Origin: Hymenobacter chitinivorans DSM 11115
GTDB lineage: Bacteria > Bacteroidota > Bacteroidia > Cytophagales > Hymenobacteraceae
Assembly: GCF_002797555.1 (NCBI RefSeq)
Contig: NZ_PGFA01000002.1
Span: 310,001 to 374,000, forward strand
Direction of reading: 5' to 3'
DNA length: 64,000 nucleotides
Shown: one piece after another, positions 7,076-56,534 of the stretch
How positions within the stretch are numbered: the first letter of the stretch is position 1
Layout of the letters: the number at the start of each line of letters is the position of its first letter
Notes under the pieces: generated by a model
The model's database searches: none
Seen by the model: the letters and a program-made list of their open reading frames with translations, nothing else
What the model was told of the DNA's origin: nothing
Made by a program: the position numbers and the translations under genes

Positions 7076-10966
<3,891 letters not shown>

Positions 10967-45886: not shown

Positions 45887-47749
45887 TTATTCACCGATTT
45901 TCTTCCCCGTCATGGCCTGCTTGATGGAAATGTTCATCACCCGCTCGGCGAAGGGGCTGGTGAGGCTTTCCAGGTCGTCGACGGCCTTCAGGATGGTGTC
46001 CTTGTCGTTGGTTTCGAGGGCTTCGCGCAGCACCTGGGTTTGGGCGGCGGTGTGGGTAATTTCGTCCTCGGTCAGGTACTGGGAGTTTTTCTCCACGAAA
46101 CGCTCCACCTGATACAGCATCTGCTCGGCCACGGTGCGGGCCTCGATGACCATGCGGGCCGCCACGTCCTCGCGGGCGTGGGTTAAGGAATCCATCAGCA
46201 TCTGTTCCACCTGCTCGTCGGTCAGGCCGTACTGGGGCTTGATTTCGACGGCCTGCCGGGTGTTAGAGCGCAGCTCAATGGCTTCCACCTGCAGAATGCC
46301 GTCGGCGTTGAGCAGGAAGTTCACGTCCACTTTGGGCAAGCCGGCGGGCATGGCCGGAATGCCGCGCAGGTCAAACTCGGCCAGCTTGCGGTTTTCCTTC
46401 ACCAAGTCCCGCTCACCCTGGTACACCGAGATTTTCAGGTTCACCTGCCCGTCCACGGAAGTCGTGTACTGGCGGCCGGCCTTGGTCGGGATTTTGGAGT
46501 TGCGCGGAATAATGGGGTCCATGAGCCCGCCCAGGGTTTCGATGCCGAGCGTGAGGGGCGTCACGTCGAGCAGGAGCACGTCGCGGCGGTTACCGGCCAG
46601 AATATCGGCCTGAATGGCCGCGCCCAGGGCCACCACTTCGTCGGGGTTGAGGGAGTTGTTGGCCGGCTGCTGGAAGAATTCTGACACCGAGTCGTACACC
46701 AGCGGTACCCGGGTGGAGCCGCCCACGAGCAGCACCGCGTCGAGCTGCTGGGGCTGGAGCTGGGCATCGGCCAGGGCCTGGCGGCAGGAGGCAATGGTGC
46801 GCTCCACGTAGGGCCGGATCAGCTCGTTGAATTTTTCCTTGGTCAGCGGCAGCGTCGTTTCGCTGAATTCGGCTTCAAACGAGTCGTGGCTGCTCAGGTG
46901 GCGTTTGGCCTGCTCGGCCAGCAGGCGCAGCTGTTGCTGGGCAATAGGATTCTGGAACAGCACGGTAGCCAGCTGGTACTCGGCGGTCCAGTAGTCGGAA
47001 ATGGCCCGGTCCAGATCGTCGCCGCCCAGGTAGGTGTCGCCGTTGGTGCTGAGTACCTCGAAAATGCCCTGCTGAATGCGCAGAATGCTGATGTCGAAGG
47101 TGCCGCCGCCCAGGTCGTAGACGGCCACGGTTTTCTCGTCCTCGGGGCTCAGGCCGATGCCGTAGGCCAGGGCCGCGGCGGTGGGCTCATTCACAATGCG
47201 CAGCACTTCGAGACCCGCCAAACGACCGGCGTCGCGGGTGGCCTGGCGCTGGGAGTCGTTGAAGTAAGCCGGCACGGTAATCACGGCCCGGTTGACGGGC
47301 GTCTTGAGGGCGTGCTCGGCCCGGGCCCGCAGCTCCTTCAGAATCTCGGCACTCAGCTCGATGGGGGAGTAGAACCGGTCGGCCACCCGGATTTTGACCA
47401 GGCCCTCGGAGTTGTCGTCGATGACTTTGTAGCCCAGCTGGGTGGCGTGCTCGCCCAGGTCGCGGTACGACTTGCCCAGCAGGCGCTTCACCGAATAAAT
47501 CGTGTTCTGGGGCTCGGTGAGCAGGTACTGCTTGGCGTCGGTGCCCACAATTGGGTCGGGGGCGTCGAGGGGGAAGTGCACGACCGAGGGTACGATGGTG
47601 CCCCGGCCCTGGTCGTTGATGGCCAGCGGGTGGCGGCCGTCGGGGTGAATATAGGCTACCAGGCTGTTGGTGGTGCCCAAATCAATGCCGACGATGATTT
47701 CTTCCTGCTGAATGCTCCCGGTAGAGAGGTTGATTGCGACTTTGGCCAT
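45887..47749 (-). CDS. hscA: Hsp70-family chaperone, HscA-like
   Basis: This 620-residue protein has the Hsp70 ATPase domain ([15 protein letters not shown] at about residues 19-33; [23 protein letters not shown]). The substrate domain starts at [20 protein letters not shown]. Length and N-terminus fit HscA, the iron-sulfur cluster-assembly chaperone, better than DnaK. It lacks the long acidic DnaK tail. No isc or hscB genes are visible nearby, so the symbol rests on family resemblance. Confidence 0.85.
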
Positions 47750-48175: not shown

Positions 48176-50242
48176 ATGAAGAAGACCTATACCCGTCCGA
48201 TTCTCCACATGGGCTTAGCCGCAACGGCAATCGTCGGCGCCCTGGCCTGGAGCGGACAGAACACCCGTTTGGAAGCCTCCAGCCACCGCGAAGCCCCGCT
48301 TATTGCCGATGACCCGCTGGCCGACAATACGGACTTGTACGCCTTCCGCGACCCGAACAATCCGGAGCTGATCAACATCATTGCCAACTACATTCCGCTG
48401 GAGTTGCCCCAGGGGGGGCCGATCTACAACACGTTTGGAGAAAACATACGCTACGAAATCCACATCAAGAACAAGACGACCACGACGGGCGACGACCTGA
48501 CGTATCGTTTTACGTTCACGCGGACCAACGAAGACCCCACCACGTTTTTCCGGACCCGCCTGGGCAAGGAAAACCAGAAAACGACCTACACCGCTGAGCT
48601 CAGCGTCAATGGCGGCGCTTTTACGCCCATCGTAACGGGCGGCGTGGTGCCCCCGCCCAACATTGGCGTCCGTTCTATTGAAGGTGATGCCGGGTTGAAA
48701 ACGCCCTACAATACGCTCATGACCAACGCTATCCGGACGTTGGCCAACGGTACGAAAGTATTCTGCGGCCCGGTGGATGACCCGTTCTTCGTGGATTTGG
48801 GCGGCATCTTCGACCTGGGCGGCGTGCGCCCCAGCACCGCCCGTGACGGTGTAGCCCGCAAGAACACCCACACCATTGCCCTGCAAATTCCGATTTCGGT
48901 ACTGCAGAAAGACGGCAAAACCGGCGCCCAAGCCGCCAACATCCTGGATTCGGACTACATTATCGGTGTGTGGGCCTCGGCCAGCCGCCAAGCCATCCGC
49001 ACCCTGAACACGGACGGTACCCAGACGCAGTCGGGCAACTACGTGCAGGTGTCGCGCCTGGGCATGCCCCTGACCAACGAAGTAGTTATTCCCATCGGGC
49101 AGAAAGACGAGTGGAACGCCGGCAACCCCTACGGGATGGTAGCTAAGTTCGACGAAAACGCCATGAACCCCGAGCTGGCCCTCTACATGGACGACAGCCG
49201 CTTCGGGGGCGCCGTGCCCGGCCTGGGCGCCCTGCGTATCCAGTCTAACTCCCTGCAGGCTTTCGACTTCCGTAACGGCAAAGACGGCCTGGCTAACCTG
49301 ACCACCGCCCAGCGCGCCGGTACGGTCTTCGCCGACCCCACTTTCGGCCCCTATCTGCTGCGCGCCGGCAAGCCCCGCTCGGTCGACATTCTGCCCATCT
49401 TCCACACGGGCGTGCCTAACCTGCCTCCGTATCAGCTGGCTACCGGCAAACCGCTGCGCAACCCGCTGGCCGCTGGTAAGCCATTTATCAACAACTTCCT
49501 GCCCACCCTGGGCGACATGCTGCGCCTGAACATGGCCGTGCCCGCCACGCCTCGCACCCTGTCTAACGGTGCCCCCAACCCCGAGTTCAGCTCGGAGGGT
49601 CTGCTGGCCGCCGCCGTGCTGGGTCTGACCGACACGCGCTTCAACGGTAGCGCTGCCCTGCAGGCTATTCCGAACATGGACGGCTTCCCCAACGGCCGTC
49701 GCCTGGAAGATGACGTGACCCGCATCGAGCTGCAAGCCGTGGGTGGCGTGGTACTGGCTGCCATCGGCCTGTTCTACGACGACTTCTCGGCTACGGCCAC
49801 CAACCCCGTAACGGCTCAGCTGGGCGGCGTACTCGGCTTCCGGACCGGCGTAGAAGCCAATGACACGACCTTCAAGGCGGCTTTCCCTTACATGCAGACG
49901 CCTTGGCGCGGCAGCAAGGCCCAGTCGACGGTTACTTCGCAGCGCGGCAGCGTAGGCATGGGCCTGCAGGCGGCTCCGGTGGAAGTAGCCCAGAACTATC
50001 CTAACCCCTTCACCGAAAAAACCACGATTCGCTACGAAGTGGGCGTGAAAGGTCCGCTGACGATTGTGATTTCCGACATGATGGGCCGCCCCGTCAAAAC
50101 CCTAGTCGACAACAAGGAGCACAAGCCCGGTACCTACGAAACGGCCTGGAAAGTGCAGAACCTGGCCGCCGGCACCTACATTGCCACGGTAAAATCGGGC
50201 GAAACGGTGCTGCAGTCCATCAAGCTGGTGCACACCAACTAA
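48176..50242 (+). CDS. DUF4331 protein with type IX secretion signal
   Basis: The protein has 688 residues from ATG 48176; the upstream in-frame extension covers the divergent gap and is rejected. A signal peptide (AATAIVGALAWSG) precedes the DUF4331 signature SSHREAPLIADDPLADNTDL. A long domain follows, then a C-terminal sorting domain of the type IX system (VAQNYPNPFTEKTTIRYEV, ending SIKLVHTN). It is therefore predicted to be secreted or cell-surface attached. DUF4331 function is unknown; the acidic and His residues of the signature could bind metal. A terminator follows. Confidence 0.9.
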   Translation: MKKTYTRPILHMGLAATAIVGALAWSGQNTRLEASSHREAPLIADDPLADNTDLYAFRDPNNPELINIIANYIPLELPQGGPIYNTFGENIRYEIHIKNKTTTTGDDLTYRFTFTRTNEDPTTFFRTRLGKENQKTTYTAELSVNGGAFTPIVTGGVVPPPNIGVRSIEGDAGLKTPYNTLMTNAIRTLANGTKVFCGPVDDPFFVDLGGIFDLGGVRPSTARDGVARKNTHTIALQIPISVLQKDGKTGAQAANILDSDYIIGVWASASRQAIRTLNTDGTQTQSGNYVQVSRLGMPLTNEVVIPIGQKDEWNAGNPYGMVAKFDENAMNPELALYMDDSRFGGAVPGLGALRIQSNSLQAFDFRNGKDGLANLTTAQRAGTVFADPTFGPYLLRAGKPRSVDILPIFHTGVPNLPPYQLATGKPLRNPLAAGKPFINNFLPTLGDMLRLNMAVPATPRTLSNGAPNPEFSSEGLLAAAVLGLTDTRFNGSAALQAIPNMDGFPNGRRLEDDVTRIELQAVGGVVLAAIGLFYDDFSATATNPVTAQLGGVLGFRTGVEANDTTFKAAFPYMQTPWRGSKAQSTVTSQRGSVGMGLQAAPVEVAQNYPNPFTEKTTIRYEVGVKGPLTIVISDMMGRPVKTLVDNKEHKPGTYETAWKVQNLAAGTYIATVKSGETVLQSIKLVHTN

Positions 50243-50356
50243 GCCACCGGCCTGCCCCGGCGGCAACGAGCAGGAATAGTTTCTGCTGGTTGCCGCCGAT
50301 GGTGGCCTCTCTGCTAGCCGGGCCCGGGTGAGTTCGGCTAGCTTGCTGGTATATAC

Positions 50357-50386
50357 GGAGCCCGACTTCACCGTCGGGCTCCTTTT
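50357..50386 (+). terminator. Terminator after the DUF4331 gene
   Basis: GGAGCCCGAC (50357-50366) pairs with GTCGGGCTCC (50373-50382), followed by TTTT. It lies inside the open frame that runs up to the TPR gene, which argues that the TPR protein starts downstream of it. Confidence 0.9.
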
Positions 50387-50408
50387 CCCATTCTTAGCCC
50401 CTGCTGCT

Positions 50409-51734
50409 TTGCGCAAATATCTTTACCCTTCGTTGCTGGTGTGCTTCGGTTTGGCCGTCGCCGCCCTGTTTATTTTCCGCAAGCCCGAGCCCATTCCCCA
50501 GCTGAAAGAGCGCCACGGCGACCTGGCCCTGGGCGGGGAGTGGCTGAACACCAAGAATGCCATTGGCGGCCTGCTGGCCCAGCTGCGGGCCAAGCCCGAC
50601 GACAACAAAGCCAAGCTGCTGCTGGCCCAGGCCTACATGCAGGAAGCCCGCGTCACGGGCGACCATCCCTACTACGACATGGCCGCCATGCAGCTGCTCA
50701 ACGGCATTCTGCAGAAAGAGCCCGAAAACTTCGAGGCCCTGTGCTGCAAGGCCTCGCTGTGCCTAACCCAGCACCACTTCTCCGAAGGGCTGGCCGTGGC
50801 CGAGCAGGCCGTGAGTCTGAACCCGCACAACGCCTTCGTGTACGGACTGCTCTGCGACGCCAACGTGGAGCTGGGCCGCTACGCCGAGGCCGTGAAAATG
50901 GCCGACAAAATGAACCAGGTGCGCCCCGATTTGCGCTCCTACTCCCGCGTTTCGTACCTGCGGGAAATCTACGGCGACTATCCCGGCTCCATCGAGGCCA
51001 TGGACATGGCCGTCAAAGCCGGTTACCCGGGCCTGGAGCAAACGGCTTGGTCGCGCATTACGCTGGGCCACTTGTATGAGAATACCGGGGACCTGGGCAA
51101 CGCCGAAAAGCAGTACCAGCTGGCCCTGATTGAGCGGCCCTACTACGCCTATGCCCTGGCCGGCATGGGGCGGGTGGAAAAAGCCCGCAAGAACTATCCG
51201 GCCGCCATTGACTACTTCGGCAAGGCCCGCGCTACGGTGAAAGATTACGCTTTTGCCGACGAGCTGACTGACCTCTACCGCCTCAACCACGAGCCCGCCA
51301 AAGCTACCCAAATGGCCAAGGAAGCCATTTCGATGCTGGCCAACGATGCCCAGGAAGCCGATGCCAACGAGGCCATGGGCCACTACGCCGACCGGGAGCT
51401 GGCCTACGCCTACCTCAAGACCAACGAGCTGGACAAAGCCCTGGAGCACGCCAAAATCGAGTATGAGCGCCGCCCCGATAACATCGACGTGTGCGAAACC
51501 ATGGCTTGGGTGCACTACAAGCGGGGCGAGTATGCCGAGGCGCAAAAGCTGATGACCAAGGCCCTGCGCACCAACTCCCACAACCCCACGCTGCTGTGCC
51601 GCGCCGGCCTGATTGCCTCCAAAAACGGGCAGGCCGAGAAAGGCCAGGCCCTGATCCGACAGGCGTTGAGCACCAATCCTTACCTGAGCTTCGACTTGGC
51701 CGACGAGGGCAAGAAGCTACTGGCCGTTAACTAA
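50409..51734 (+). CDS. TPR-repeat protein with N-terminal membrane anchor
   Basis: The start is taken as TTG at 50409 (LRKYLYPSLLVCFGLAVAAL) because the earlier in-frame GTG at 50328 precedes the terminator hairpin. This gives 441 residues: one hydrophobic N-terminal anchor, then a series of TPR motifs (LAEQAVSLNPHNAFVYGLLC, YAEAVKMADKMNQV, LDKALEHAKIEYERRPDNID) to the end. TPR domains bind proteins; no enzymatic domain is visible. It lies between DUF4331 and HupE genes, 19 nt before the latter. Confidence 0.85.
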   Translation: MRKYLYPSLLVCFGLAVAALFIFRKPEPIPQLKERHGDLALGGEWLNTKNAIGGLLAQLRAKPDDNKAKLLLAQAYMQEARVTGDHPYYDMAAMQLLNGILQKEPENFEALCCKASLCLTQHHFSEGLAVAEQAVSLNPHNAFVYGLLCDANVELGRYAEAVKMADKMNQVRPDLRSYSRVSYLREIYGDYPGSIEAMDMAVKAGYPGLEQTAWSRITLGHLYENTGDLGNAEKQYQLALIERPYYAYALAGMGRVEKARKNYPAAIDYFGKARATVKDYAFADELTDLYRLNHEPAKATQMAKEAISMLANDAQEADANEAMGHYADRELAYAYLKTNELDKALEHAKIEYERRPDNIDVCETMAWVHYKRGEYAEAQKLMTKALRTNSHNPTLLCRAGLIASKNGQAEKGQALIRQALSTNPYLSFDLADEGKKLLAVN

Positions 51735-51753
51735 GCTCCTTGTTGCTGGCTGT

Positions 51754-52440
51754 ATGAAAACTTTGGTTGGGTCCAGAATGCTGATGGCGCGGACGGCGGT
51801 TTTGCTGCTCGTGGGGCTGCTATTGCCGCACCTGGCCGCGGCCCACGTGCTGGATGTGGACGTGAGCAAACTTTCCCGCACCGACATTATCAGCACCTAC
51901 CTCAAGCTGGGCTACACCCACATTTTGCCCCTCGGCCTCGACCATATCCTGTTCGTGCTGAGTTTGTATTTTCTGGAGCCCCGCCTCAGAGCCGTGCTCT
52001 GGCAGGCTACGGCCTTTACCGTGGCCCACTCCATTACGTTGGGAATGGCCATGTACGGCCTGATTTCGCCGCCCGCTTCCATCGTGGAGCCGGTTATTGC
52101 CTTGTCCATTCTGTTTGTGGCCATCGAGAATATCGTGGCCGACCGGCTCAACCCGTGGCGGGTGGCCATCGTCTTCGGCTTTGGCTTGATTCACGGCATG
52201 GGCTTCGCCAGCGTGCTAACCGGACTCGGACTACCCCGCGCTATGTTCGTCGAGTCGTTGATTTCCTTTAACGTGGGCGTGGAGCTGGGTCAGGTGACGG
52301 TGATTCTGCTGGCCTGGCTGCTGGTGGGCCGCTGGTTTGCCGACAAGCCCTGGTACAAGCAGCGCGTAGTAATACCGGTTTCGGTCCTCATCGGGCTGGT
52401 AGCTGCCTACTGGACCGTCGAGCGGGTGTTTTTCGCCTGA
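51754..52440 (+). CDS. HupE/UreJ-family membrane protein
   Basis: This 228-residue protein has a signal-like N-terminus and about six further transmembrane segments. The family's His-rich motifs are present: GYTHILPLGLDHILFVLSL (about residues 53-71), VAHSITLGMAMYG and LIHGMGFASVL. HupE/UreJ proteins are linked to nickel or cobalt uptake in hydrogenase and urease clusters, but here no such enzyme is present. It follows the TPR gene by 19 nt and leads toward a TonB-dependent receptor. Confidence 0.92.
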   Translation: MKTLVGSRMLMARTAVLLLVGLLLPHLAAAHVLDVDVSKLSRTDIISTYLKLGYTHILPLGLDHILFVLSLYFLEPRLRAVLWQATAFTVAHSITLGMAMYGLISPPASIVEPVIALSILFVAIENIVADRLNPWRVAIVFGFGLIHGMGFASVLTGLGLPRAMFVESLISFNVGVELGQVTVILLAWLLVGRWFADKPWYKQRVVIPVSVLIGLVAAYWTVERVFFA

Positions 52441-52500
52441 GGCCAAAAGTTGGCAAGAGCTGGTTTATAATTCACAATTCAGCATTTATAATTTCTAAAA

Positions 52501-52887
52501 ATGTTGCGCTCCGGGCTCGTGCTGCTGTTGCTCACCCACTACCTGCTGGTAGTGGGGGCCGGCCTCGTGAACCGGCCGCAACCACCGCGCTACTCGGCCG
52601 CCCACCCCTACGTGCACCGCGCCGACTGCCAGCAGAAGCACTACCTCATGGTCGACTGCTTCGATACCTGCAACGGCGACCAGCACGTGGTGCAAAAGCG
52701 CACCGCCGGTGAAAATGCCCAGCACCTGCTGACGCTAATGAAAGGCGTTGACGCGCATATGCTGGCCGAAACCATCAGCCTGCCGCCGGTGTATCCGGCC
52801 CCTAAGCCAACCCTGCCCGCGGAGCTGCGCCAGTCGGTGCCCCCGGGTTTTGCCGCGTTAGTTTACGCTCCGCCCCGTCGGGGATAA
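52501..52887 (+). CDS. Small exported Cys/His protein
   Basis: This 128-residue protein has an N-terminal hydrophobic segment (MLRSGLVLLLLTHYLLVVGA). A short region with three Cys and several His follows (HRADCQQKHYLMVDCFDTCN, about residues 39-58), then a Pro-rich tail. It resembles small Cys-containing proteins found next to metal-linked receptors in Bacteroidetes, but I cannot name a family. The pattern suits metal binding or a disulfide. It sits 60 nt after hupE and before the receptor. Confidence 0.7.
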   Translation: MLRSGLVLLLLTHYLLVVGAGLVNRPQPPRYSAAHPYVHRADCQQKHYLMVDCFDTCNGDQHVVQKRTAGENAQHLLTLMKGVDAHMLAETISLPPVYPAPKPTLPAELRQSVPPGFAALVYAPPRRG

Positions 52888-53011
52888 GTCCGGGGTGGCC
52901 CATGTAGAGCCGCCCGTAGCGCGTTGAAGTACTCCGCGCCGTGGTCTTATCCTTTGTTTTGCTGCCTGCTGCCGGCTCATCGCGCCCGTAGTGCCAGCTC
53001 ATTCCCGACGT

Positions 53012-53233
53012 ATGAACTCCCTTTTCCGTTTTTCTCTGCCCTCGGCTACGTCTGCTCAGGGTTTTATTGCCGTGCCGGTGCCCGCCGCGGTTTCCGCCCT
53101 CATCAGCCCGCCCGCCGCGGCCCGGCCCGTGCAGCAGTACACGGCCCGGCAACTGGCCGCCGGGCAGGCGCACCGGGCCCAGGCCCTGGCCAGCCGCCGC
53201 TCCTCGATTCCCTCTTCCGCCAAACGGTTCTAA
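53012..53233 (+). CDS. Possible small protein, 73 residues
   Basis: This small ORF (MNSLFRFSLPSATSAQGFIA, ending SIPSSAKRF) stops three nt before the receptor start. Its third codon positions are strongly G/C, like the neighbouring genes, unlike the overlapping frame of the receptor's upstream extension. No known domain or signal peptide is visible. It is plausible but unproven; it could be a translationally coupled leader peptide. Confidence 0.45.
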   Translation: MNSLFRFSLPSATSAQGFIAVPVPAAVSALISPPAAARPVQQYTARQLAAGQAHRAQALASRRSSIPSSAKRF

Positions 53234-53235
53234 GC

Positions 53236-55590
53236 ATGAGCCAGTTGTACGCGGCCCTTCCTGCCCGTCACGCGCGGCCCGCCTTGTGGTCGGTTGTCGT
53301 GGGGCTTTTTCTTTTGCTATCCACTTTCTCCCATCCGGTGCTGGGCCAAAACCCGGCGGTACTGCGCGGCTTTGTCACCGATTCGCTGTCGGGGCAGCGC
53401 CTGCCCGGCGTGGGTATCCGCCTCGATGGGCAGCCCCAGGGCACGGCTTCCGACGCGGCCGGGACTTTTCGCCTTGCCAATCTGCCGGCGGGCACCTACA
53501 CCGTGCGGGCTACGGCCCTGGGCTACCGCAGCCCGGCTACCACCGTCACGCTTACGGCCGGCTCTACTCAGACGCTGAACCTGCGGCTTTCGGCCGTGGC
53601 CCTGAGCCTGCGCGAAGTCACCGTGTCCCAGCCCCGGGACCCGAACCAGTCGGTGGCCGCCATTTCCCACATCGACCAGGCGCTGCGGCCCGTCAACTCG
53701 GCCCAGGATCTGCTGCGGCTGGTGCCGGGCCTCTTTATTGCCCAGCACGCCGGCGGGGGCAAGGCCGAGCAAATCTTCCTGCGCGGCTTCGACTGTGACC
53801 ATGGCACCGACTTCGCCGTGAGCATCGACGGGCTGCCGGTGAACATGGTGAGCCACGCCCACGGCCAGGGCTACGCCGACTTTCACTTCGTCATTCCCGA
53901 AACCGTGGAACAGCTGCGCGTCTACAAAGGGCCGTACACGGCCCGGTTCGGGGATTTCGCCACGGCCGGGGCGGGGGAGTTTACTACCAAAACCAGCCTG
54001 GACCGTAGCCAGATCAAGGTGGAAGTGGGCCGGTTCGACACCCGCCGGGCCCTGGTCATGCTGGACTTGCTAGGCCACAACAAGCACCACTTGCTGAGCA
54101 AAAAGCCGGAAAGCGCCTACGTGGCGGCCGAGTACAACTTTACCAATTCCTACTTCGACCAGAAGCAGCACTTCCAGCGCTTCAACGGCCTGGCCAAGTA
54201 CACCGGTCAGCTCACCGACCAAACGTCGCTCACGCTGCTGGGCTCCCACTTTACTTCCAACTGGGACGCCAGCGGGCAGATTCCGGAGCGGGGCGTGGCC
54301 GAGGGGCTGATTTCGCGCTACGGCAGCATCGACCCCACCGAGGGCGGCAGCACCAGCCGCACCAACGCTTCGGCGGTGCTGACCACCGGCCTGCCCCACG
54401 ACGCGGTGTTGCGGCAGCAGGCCTACTACTCGAAGTACGATTTCAGCCTGTATTCCAACTTCACCTTCTTCCTGCAGGACCCGGTAAACGGCGACGAAAT
54501 TCAGCAGCTCGACAACCGCCACCTGTTTGGCTACACCGCTACCTACGAGCAAAGCACCCAGCTCGGCAGCCGCAGCTTGCACTCGACGCTGGGCGTGGGC
54601 ACCCGCAACGACTTTTCAAATCTGGGCCTGCGCCACACCGTGCGCCGCGAGGTGCTGGATACTGTGACAACCGGCAAACTCTACGAGCGGAACCTCAACG
54701 CCTACCTCGACGAAACCCTGCCGCTGACCGAGCAGCTGACCCTGAATGCCGCAGTGCGGGCCGACGTGTTTACCTTCGACTTCCGCGGCCAGCTCTACGA
54801 TACCACTTCGTTGAGTCTGCAGCCGCTGCGGGGCCGCGTGACCAAGGCCCGGGTGTCGCCGAAGCTGAATCTGTACTACGAGCTGACGCCCCAGGTGCAG
54901 CTCTTCGTGCGCTCCGGTATCGGGTTTCACTCCAATGATGCCCGGGGCGTGATTCGGGGCACGGTGGGGCAGAATGTGCTGCCTCGGGCTATTGGCTACG
55001 AGGTGGGCAGCACGTTTAAGCCCGTGCCCAGCCTGGTCGTCAACGCAGCCGTGTGGGCCCTGCACCTGCAGGACGAGCTGGTGTACATCGGCGACGCGGG
55101 CGAGGTGGAAAGCACCGGCCCCACCCGCCGCTTCGGTCTCGACGCCTCGGTCCGCTACCAGCTGACGCCCTCCCTGTTTGCCGATCTGGACCTGAATTTC
55201 AACCACGGCCGGCAGGTGGCGGCGCCCAAGGGGGCCAACTACATTCCGCTGGCGCCCAGCTTCACCAGCATCGGCGGCCTGACGCTGAAGCGGCCCTCGG
55301 GCCTCAATGCCAGCCTGCGCTACCGCTACATCGACGACCGGCCGGCCAACGACGACGGCAGCATTACGGCCCGGGGCTACTTCCTGCTCGATGCGGTGGT
55401 GAGCTACACCAAGGCCTGGTTTCAGCTGGGCGCTACCGTCGAAAACCTGCTCAACGTGGAGTGGAACCAGGCTCAGTTTGCTACCGAAACCCGCCTGCCC
55501 ACCGAGCCCGTGGGCACGTCGGTGGATGAGCTGCACTTCACGCCCGGCACGCCATTTTACCTGAAAGCCACCTTCAGCGTCTTTTTCTAA
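53236..55590 (+). CDS. TonB-dependent receptor with His-rich plug
   Basis: The protein has 784 residues from ATG 53236; the in-frame stretch from 52924 has no signal peptide and poor coding character. A signal peptide ends near VLGQ, followed by a carboxypeptidase-regulatory-like domain (VLRGFVTDSLSGQRLPGVGI). The plug has a conspicuous His/Asp cluster (FDCDHGTDFAVSIDGLPV, then MVSHAHGQGYADFHFVIPE), and a 22-strand-type barrel ends in LKATFSVFF. Such receptors import metals or metal complexes at the outer membrane with TonB energy. Next to hupE this suggests metal uptake; the substrate is unproven. Confidence 0.92.
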   Translation: MSQLYAALPARHARPALWSVVVGLFLLLSTFSHPVLGQNPAVLRGFVTDSLSGQRLPGVGIRLDGQPQGTASDAAGTFRLANLPAGTYTVRATALGYRSPATTVTLTAGSTQTLNLRLSAVALSLREVTVSQPRDPNQSVAAISHIDQALRPVNSAQDLLRLVPGLFIAQHAGGGKAEQIFLRGFDCDHGTDFAVSIDGLPVNMVSHAHGQGYADFHFVIPETVEQLRVYKGPYTARFGDFATAGAGEFTTKTSLDRSQIKVEVGRFDTRRALVMLDLLGHNKHHLLSKKPESAYVAAEYNFTNSYFDQKQHFQRFNGLAKYTGQLTDQTSLTLLGSHFTSNWDASGQIPERGVAEGLISRYGSIDPTEGGSTSRTNASAVLTTGLPHDAVLRQQAYYSKYDFSLYSNFTFFLQDPVNGDEIQQLDNRHLFGYTATYEQSTQLGSRSLHSTLGVGTRNDFSNLGLRHTVRREVLDTVTTGKLYERNLNAYLDETLPLTEQLTLNAAVRADVFTFDFRGQLYDTTSLSLQPLRGRVTKARVSPKLNLYYELTPQVQLFVRSGIGFHSNDARGVIRGTVGQNVLPRAIGYEVGSTFKPVPSLVVNAAVWALHLQDELVYIGDAGEVESTGPTRRFGLDASVRYQLTPSLFADLDLNFNHGRQVAAPKGANYIPLAPSFTSIGGLTLKRPSGLNASLRYRYIDDRPANDDGSITARGYFLLDAVVSYTKAWFQLGATVENLLNVEWNQAQFATETRLPTEPVGTSVDELHFTPGTPFYLKATFSVFF

Positions 55591-55658: not shown

Positions 55659-56534
55659 ATGGCTTTTTTTCCTTCCACTTCTGTGTTTTTCCCCGGTCGG
55701 CTTCGGTGGCAATGCCTGTTGGGCGTCGTTGCGGCGGGGCTGCTGGTCGCAGAAAGCGGCTGCCAGTCGGCCGAAAAGGAGAGCCGCAAGCCTACCATCG
55801 GCAGCCAGACCATGTGCCAGGCCCCGGTGCCCGTAGCCGCCGCGGCCCCGCCCGACTCCTTGCAGCCCGTAGCGTTGGCACCATTGCCGGGCCTTTCGGC
55901 GGAAGTGCGGCAGCAGGTGGCAGAGCTGTACCAAGCCCTGGGCAGCGAAGCCCAAGAGCTGCGCCTGCCGGTGCTGGAGCGGGCCTGCGTGGGCTACCTC
56001 ACGCTGCGCCACGCCGGCCGCATCCGCCGCCCCGCCGTGCTGGCTGTGGCCGACATGGATTTGCCCTCAACCAAAAAGCGGCTCTGGGTGCTGGATTTGA
56101 ACAAAAAGCGGGTGCTGCAGCACAGCTACGTGGCCCACGGCCGGGGCTCGGGCTACGTGCGGGCCCGGCGCTTTTCCAACCGGATTAAGTCGGCCTGCAC
56201 GGCCCTGGGCTTCTACCGCACCGCCGATACCTACGACGGCAAGCACGGCCTCTCGCGCCGCCTGCACGGCCTCGACCCGGGCCAGAACAGCAACGCCCTG
56301 GACCGCTACGTGGTGCTGCACGGCGCCGACTACGCCGGGCAAGCATACCTGGCCAAACACCAACAGTTGGGCTACAGCCGGGGCTGCCCGGCCCTGCCGC
56401 CCGAGCAGTACCGCGCCGTCATCAAGGCGGTGGGGGAGGGAGCCTGCCTGTTTTTGAGCGGGCCCGGGCTGGAGTCGAAGTGGCTGGATGGAGGCGTGGC
56501 AGCTCAGCAGCTGGCAGCCCGGGGCTGGCAGTAG
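55659..56534 (+). CDS. YkuD_2-type L,D-transpeptidase-like protein
   Basis: This 291-residue protein has an N-terminal hydrophobic segment ending at LLVAESGC, an imperfect lipobox. The catalytic-type domain includes LRHAGRIRRPAVLAVADMDLPSTKK, HGADYAGQAYLAK and SRGCPALPPEQY (catalytic Cys243), the His-Gly-Cys pattern of the YkuD_2 family of murein transpeptidase-like proteins. It is probably periplasmic or envelope-attached and may modify peptidoglycan. A paralogue is at 59918. Confidence 0.85.
   Translation: MAFFPSTSVFFPGRLRWQCLLGVVAAGLLVAESGCQSAEKESRKPTIGSQTMCQAPVPVAAAAPPDSLQPVALAPLPGLSAEVRQQVAELYQALGSEAQELRLPVLERACVGYLTLRHAGRIRRPAVLAVADMDLPSTKKRLWVLDLNKKRVLQHSYVAHGRGSGYVRARRFSNRIKSACTALGFYRTADTYDGKHGLSRRLHGLDPGQNSNALDRYVVLHGADYAGQAYLAKHQQLGYSRGCPALPPEQYRAVIKAVGEGACLFLSGPGLESKWLDGGVAAQQLAARGWQ

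Follow-up and report, generated by a model that had tools for sequence, protein, structure and literature searches.

The closest described systems are of three kinds. Anglerases, which are HupE-linked His1 domains, are reported to bind Cu by thermal shift, with crystallography for Ang-1, and Ang-1 binds Ni as well as Cu, the latter more tightly (Kd of 220 and 74 nM, respectively; PMC12537917, published in 2025). Nickel TonB-dependent transporters include FrpB4, FecA3, and Bll6948 (PMC11247825), and NicO/RcnA and UreH form a third group, the nickel/cobalt permeases. The locus described here, from Hymenobacter chitinivorans DSM 11115, shares features with all three. Its HupE protein belongs to the same Pfam family as Ang-1 and Ang-2, which together with DUF6702 and DUF4198 are described as secreted N-terminal chelators (PMC12537917), and like them it has a predicted His1 after the signal peptide. 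However, anglerases have an extracytoplasmic metal-binding domain fused ahead of HupE, with a linker near residue 175-184 in the published examples, whereas the HupE of this locus has a short N-terminal piece and no Ang domain. The DUF4331 protein encoded beside it has its histidine at position 3 instead of position 1 and would therefore be missed by a His1 search; the main text of the anglerase paper contains neither ATCUN nor TPR or tetratricopeptide. The TonB-dependent receptor of the locus is of the same receptor family as the nickel transporters named in PMC11247825, and its kin, as opposed to the gene itself, lie beside nikR/hoxN; it would differ from those transporters by its linkage to DUF4331, TPR, and HupE genes and by an N-terminal CarboxypepD_reg domain. 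A NicO-type protein stands in the place of HupE in many related loci, and these cassette forms add an exported His1 domain (HPLGNFT). The receptor and the permease are of known kinds, and the DUF4331-TPR core and the predicted N-terminal chelator would be the new elements. In the literature searched, neither a mention of DUF4331 (PF14224) nor a description of the DUF4331-TPR-permease cassette as a unit was found, which, together with the conserved neighborhood reported below, supports the proposal of an earlier sequence-only reading that an undescribed metal-acquisition module is encoded here.

The window analyzed (64,000 nucleotides in total) contains genes for DUF4331, TPR, HupE/UreJ_2, a small Cys/His protein, a tiny ORF, and a TonB receptor, in this order and all on the + strand, with intergenic gaps of 166, 19, 60, 124, and 2 nt (Table 1). 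All six closely spaced ORFs of the sequence-only reading were thus present in the order given, and the families of DUF4331, TPR, HupE, and the receptor were confirmed by profile searches. The DUF4331 protein matched PF14224 with 409.8 bits (cut-off, 27; E value, 2.1e-122) over the whole model (1-421 of 421). Its tail matched the T9SS sorting domains PF18962 (36 bits; cut-off, 27; E value, 8.4e-9) and TIGR04183 (35.4 bits; cut-off, 23; E value, 7.7e-9), which implies secretion to the cell surface, as had been claimed from the sequence. The HupE protein scored 160.5 bits against PF13795 (cut-off, 24.5), and both the plug (PF07715) and the barrel (PF00593) of the receptor were above the cut-off, placing it among the TonB-dependent receptors. 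The TPR reading frame is open from 50328 with GTG, so that its start codon is uncertain, and its anchor helix was identified by eye. Since the tiny ORF matched three close relatives (E values of 3e-12 to 4e-5), it is probably real.

Table 1. Features of the DUF4331 locus (positions in the window).
Feature	Position	Strand	Basis or remark
Exported DUF4331 protein of 688 aa carrying a T9SS sorting domain at its C-terminus	48176..50242	+	PF14224, PF18962, TIGR04183
Ser-Ser-His codons, predicted mature DUF4331 residues 1-3 (ATCUN-like NH2-X-X-His)	48278..48286	+	cleavage site predicted
T9SS type A sorting domain of DUF4331	49997..50230	+	residues 608-678 (Pfam), 608-685 (NCBIfam)
Strong 10-pair hairpin in the DUF4331-TPR gap; candidate attenuator or weak terminator	50357..50382	+	folding, z -6.7
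Membrane-anchored TPR protein	about 50409..51734, start codon uncertain	+	PF07719 (E value, 1.1e-19) and others; orthologues adjoin DUF4331
HupE/UreJ_2 permease, predicted mature start His31	51754..52440	+	PF13795 (E value, 3.2e-47)
Small membrane-anchored Cys/His-rich protein	52501..52887	+	no family above cut-off
Tiny ORF, 73 aa	53012..53233	+	kept in three close relatives
TonB-dependent receptor, CarboxypepD_reg domain, plug motif DHGTD...SHAHGQGY	53236..55590	+	plug E value, 4e-19; barrel E value, 5e-23

The hairpin between DUF4331 and TPR (-22.2 kcal/mol) was stronger than chance would give, because none of 200 shuffled sequences folded equally well, and it may attenuate or terminate transcription at this point. 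The sequence-only reading had seen a terminator here and deduced at least two transcripts. A strong hairpin does lie there, but no more than four U residues come after it, and a terminator scan did not list it; two or more transcripts are therefore only a possibility. No conserved motif or operator was seen in an alignment of eight regions upstream of DUF4331, one row of which had been reversed by the aligner, and the search for riboswitches returned no match at the Rfam threshold, with tRNAs alone matching (four sources). An Hsp70/DnaK-like gene (window positions 45887-47749) is divergent from DUF4331 and occupies the same place in several same-genus loci. A gene for a YkuD_2 L,D-transpeptidase (55659-56534) lies 3' of the receptor gene, and relatives of it are close by in several same-genus loci.

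The distribution of the cassette was examined in Cytophagales and in other phyla. A Pfam search detected DUF4331 in 18 of 148 Cytophagales genomes, including that of the window, and in 19 Cytophagales loci of 20 kb each, a TPR gene was found downstream of DUF4331 in 16, HupE in 11, the receptor in 16, and the Cys/His protein in eight. TPR and HupE precede DUF4331 in one locus (L039), and another (L038) has no receptor. Two loci (L037 and L041) hold DUF4331 pairs without the other cassette genes, and the full set is present elsewhere in the same genomes (L049 and L048, respectively). In the phylum search, 48 of 395 genomes carried DUF4331, and TPR was present in the short flank of 14 of 17 new full-length loci and six of seven loci with a split form of the protein. 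Beyond these, 80 named loci, which were the best of at least 576 confirmed candidates and lean to Actinobacteria, were compared. TPR lay directly 3' of DUF4331 in 60 of the 72 with at least 1 kb of downstream sequence, and upstream in four more. Among the 62 named loci with at least 4 kb, 48 contained a nickel/cobalt-type permease (NicO/RcnA-like in 46, HupE in two) and 14 contained none. In 1.7 Mb of DUF4331-centered loci, a DUF4331 ORF lay no further than 500 bp from 85 of 90 TPR matches and no further than 4 kb from 67 of 68 permease matches. An Acidobacteria locus (L080) contains DUF4331, TPR, HupE, and the receptor. In six inspected records out of 32 DUF4331 plasmid records, plasmids of Pseudoalteromonas, Marinobacter, and a Comamonadaceae bacterium carry DUF4331, a small protein, TPR, and HupE; a plasmid record of Miltoncostaea (Actinomycetota) carries DUF4331-TPR, and a Jannaschia plasmid carries DUF4331 without TPR or HupE. 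In the Pseudoalteromonas locus L051, a gene pair for a sigma-70 factor and an anti-sigma factor (7594-8810) lies ahead of the cassette. The gene order, whose absence from related genomes the sequence-only reading had named as a refuting result, thus recurs in related genomes and beyond. No gene accompanies DUF4331 as constantly as that for TPR, whose product would probably be a scaffold or docking platform.

Of 132 full-length DUF4331 ORFs whose start is legible, 131 encode a predicted mature protein that begins with Ser-Ser-His and one encodes Ala-Ser-His at this place. The residue ahead of the tripeptide was Ala in 98, Gly in five, Ser in one, and Met in five of 109 ORFs with an HREAP motif. 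Nine of 118 ORFs had no HREAP: four split forms, four with an altered REAP, and one (L064) without the N-terminal piece. The four DUF4331 proteins with altered REAP (L062, L064, L081, and L092) kept Ser-Ser-His. Because '[AS]SSHREAP' was one of the two patterns by which the 80 named loci were fetched, the constancy of Ser-Ser-His in these is partly by construction. On the other hand, the sets found by HMM are free of this bias, and all 45 of their full-length ORFs (26 + 19) have Ser-Ser-His; in the 19 of these from the phylum search the preceding residue is Ala (16) or Ser (three). The Met- and Gly-preceded forms likewise do not fit the fetch pattern. Apart from His3, none of the His residues was invariant across a 60-row alignment, the invariance of residues 1-3 in such alignments being due to the choice of rows, which were cut to start at Ser/Ala-Ser-His. 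Ala, Gly, and Ser before a cleavage site fit the signal peptidase I rule, and we infer that the signal is cleaved exactly before Ser-Ser-His.

Five homologues (L073, L075, L078, L086, and L102) begin with Met-Ser-Ser-His, with no hydrophobic stretch before the Met, and are apparently cytosolic. In two of them the frame opens only 2-3 codons before the Met; in L075, L086, and L102 it is open further upstream, so that an upstream start is possible, although the last 45 residues of this upstream part have no hydrophobic stretch. None of the five fetched loci contains TPR or the permease, and the role of these five proteins may therefore differ. An initiator Met ahead of Ser is normally removed. 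Accordingly, signal cleavage and Met removal are two routes that would both leave a free Ser-Ser-His on DUF4331. A His1 (His-brace) arrangement, with cleavage after Ser-Ser, was also considered and is disfavored, because Met removal cannot expose His as residue 1 in the Met-Ser-Ser-His homologues. The split forms of some Bacteroidota, perhaps Flavobacteria-like (L046, L047, and L164-L170), consist of two exported proteins, the second of which resembles a lipoprotein in most cases. The first starts with X-Asp-His in 9 of 9 (Ala-Asp-His in eight, Gly-Asp-His in one), preceded by Ala or Ser in seven. NH2-X-X-His is the ATCUN pattern, which binds Cu(II) and Ni(II). With His3 following residues that permit cleavage, the predicted mature protein belongs to this pattern, and its start is a candidate ATCUN site for Ni(II) or Cu(II). 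The ends of three Streptomyces and one Nocardioides DUF4331 proteins were inspected and show a C-terminal hydrophobic stretch followed by Arg, a tail that would keep the protein outside the cell and anchored.

The structural model of the receptor (pLDDT of 77; below 50 in the conserved HAHG loop, residues 205-214) matched PqqU in Foldseek with an E value of 1.1e-32 and resembled FecA, FoxA, OprC, and BtuB alike; the structure therefore does not name a substrate. Relatives of the receptor on Pseudomonadota plasmids share 29-33% identity with it and retain its plug motif in slightly altered form. Fourteen of 49 records were inspected, of which the first eight were partly picked by name (hydrogenase plasmids) and the next six for spread; two had no annotation, and one was a Hymenobacter plasmid without nikR. 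Among the 11 annotated non-Bacteroidota regions of this selection, eight contained nikR and/or HoxN/NixA, and in the six records chosen for spread, nikR or HoxN was found in three of four annotated regions. The regions with nikR were those of Afipia, Comamonadaceae, Paraburkholderia, Methylomagnum, and Polymorphobacter, and those with HoxN/NixA were Cupriavidus necator pHG1 (4.4 kb off), Bradyrhizobium, Paraburkholderia, and Sphingopyxis. Hydrogenase genes were also among the neighbors, a ninth region (Methylobacterium extorquens CM4) had cobalamin genes nearby, and the Afipia region also had a heavy-metal P-type ATPase close by. Neither nikR nor HoxN/NixA was present near the receptor relatives of Sphingobium and Indioceanicola. 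Of all the evidence, these neighborhoods point most strongly to nickel and, after it, to cobalt. With the alternation of NicO and HupE, they make nickel acquisition the probable function of the cassette, cobalt being possible. A same-family receptor also occurs on a plasmid of Hymenobacter sp. GOD-10R (L177, 2802-13639) with an Ang-type HupE, three DUF3500 proteins, and a cytochrome c peroxidase, and without DUF4331. This set is possibly a sister cassette with another secreted partner; by eye, L145 (7241-11768) has a similar arrangement.

The DUF4331 cassette might instead be one for copper, in which DUF4331 and HupE capture extracellular Cu(II). ATCUN sites do prefer Cu(II), and the small Cys/His protein, for which no Pfam or NCBIfam family scored above the cut-off, has a CxxxC cluster (H-x3-C-Q and CF-x-x-CNG are present in 9 of 10 aligned rows). 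Copper is likewise the metal that Ang-1 prefers to Ni and to which Ang-2 responds most (PMC12537917). This explanation is nevertheless unlikely, since it accounts neither for the eight of 11 receptor-relative regions with nikR/hoxN nor for the alternation of the permease with NicO/RcnA-like proteins.

The genome of the window was then considered for users of nickel. Urease and hydrogenase had been noted as missing nearby. For urease this holds within the neighborhood, but the enzyme is encoded elsewhere in the genome, with urease alpha as a full-length ORF (contig C2:587595-587951) about 225 kb from the cassette; NiFe hydrogenase was not found in the genome. The urease cluster includes a UreH-like protein, named by eye, with a sub-threshold NicO match (26.3 bits versus 27.7). 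Strong urease matches (E value below 1e-50; weaker ones, such as a broken remnant in G074 and a 25.8-bit match in G004, were not counted) were found in 7 of 18 genomes with DUF4331, compared with 9 of the 130 that lack it (p = 0.0007). This excess is not taken as proof of a link, because it stems from the family of the window: inside it the counts were 7 of 9 versus 0 of 2 (p = 0.11), and outside it 0 of 9 versus 9 of 128. NiFe hydrogenase occurred in 1 of 18 genomes with DUF4331 and 17 of 130 others. DUF4331 thus shows no general association with Ni enzymes, and since the cassette is independent of urease and hydrogenase across Cytophagales, the metal must have other uses as well.

The predicted structure of DUF4331 (pLDDT of 92.8 overall) is beta-sandwich-like with a helical part. 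Residues 1-10 have a mean pLDDT of 59, and the N-terminus is therefore not fixed by the model. Foldseek returned nothing at an E value of 0.001 or better (best, 4jpq at 5e-3), a second structure comparison (VIA) gave Ig-like Fab and nanobody rows with Z below 7, and in an hmmsearch against PDB sequences every row had an E value above 1. Such a fold, a large conserved domain of over 400 residues, which is much for a simple chelator, and the large number of invariant residues other than typical ligands, as around GFPNGRR, could also befit a surface enzyme or ligand-binding protein in which the N-terminal His is structural and the metal genes adjoin for another reason. We regard this as quite improbable in view of the linkage to TPR and permease genes across phyla and the two routes that place the same Ser-Ser-His for exposure.

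The permeases carry a predicted N-terminal His of their own. In the HupE of the window, His directly follows the predicted signal peptide (LAAA|HVLDVD, with the site predicted from the sequence), and the HupE domain starts at residue 49, 18 residues past His31; in three Pseudomonadota homologues it starts at 178-208. His1 was predicted in all 17 HupE proteins (A|H in 16, S|H in one) and in all 48 legible sequences of 51 NicO proteins (A|H in 46, G|H in one, T|H in one). Most of the Actinobacteria loci inspected, and several of those from Chloroflexi, have the NicO-type protein instead of HupE. These NicO partners have an exported N-terminal domain starting with His1 (HPLGNFT), a His-rich loop where inspected, and a NicO match above the Pfam cut-off in 4 of 4 tested. 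HupE_UreJ_2 was found in 113 of 148 genomes, most of which are without urease or hydrogenase, and HupE therefore need not mean nickel. By eye, an EF-hand-like loop (e.g., D-x-N-x-D near residue 60) can be recognized in the additional N-terminal domain that the Pseudomonadota HupE proteins (L051, L053, and L055) and some NicO partners carry. A second Cytophagales HupE (L137-L143), again judged by eye, adjoins an M1 peptidase-like protein and in some cases also a DUF6702-like His-start protein. An export or sequestration role, in which surface-located DUF4331 would hold back surplus Ni/Co and the permease would pump metal out, is suggested by the resemblance of the Gram-positive partner, with its His-rich loop, to RcnA (the Ni/Co efflux model NF007454 of NCBIfam matched 3 of 3 tested, all below the cut-off), but is just as improbable as the enzyme, because the TonB receptor found in 16 of 19 Cytophagales loci is an importer and the NicO family includes importers too.

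Returning to nickel acquisition, we envisage the following route, in which the binding of the metal, its identity, its inward direction, and the hand-over roles are all predictions. DUF4331 would leave the cell through the T9SS and stay at the surface; there, NH2-Ser-Ser-His at its free end would bind Ni(II) as an ATCUN site. The TonB receptor, with the conserved Asp and His residues of its plug (DHGTD, SHAHGQGY), would then bring the metal, or a small complex of it, through the outer membrane. In the periplasm, the anchored Cys/His and TPR proteins may pass the metal on or hold the parts together, and HupE, with its predicted mature N-terminal His, would move it to the cytoplasm, urease being one user.

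Members of the cassette are mostly labeled DUF or 'hypothetical', yet the cassette recurs in different phyla, most of the inspected Streptomyces loci included. We tentatively suggest that DUF4331 could be a large and widespread family of extracellular proteins that capture Ni(II) via a free NH2-Ser-Ser-His (ATCUN) end. Such proteins would be exported equivalents of a metallophore, and in many phyla, both Gram-positive and Gram-negative, they would work alongside a TPR protein of their own and a HupE or NicO permease that bears His1. The prediction for DUF4331 is one residue wide. If true, it would give PF14224 a function, the idea of the N-terminal chelator (His1) would gain a second type (His3), and Gram-negative and Gram-positive bacteria would have common ground in catching scarce extracellular nickel.
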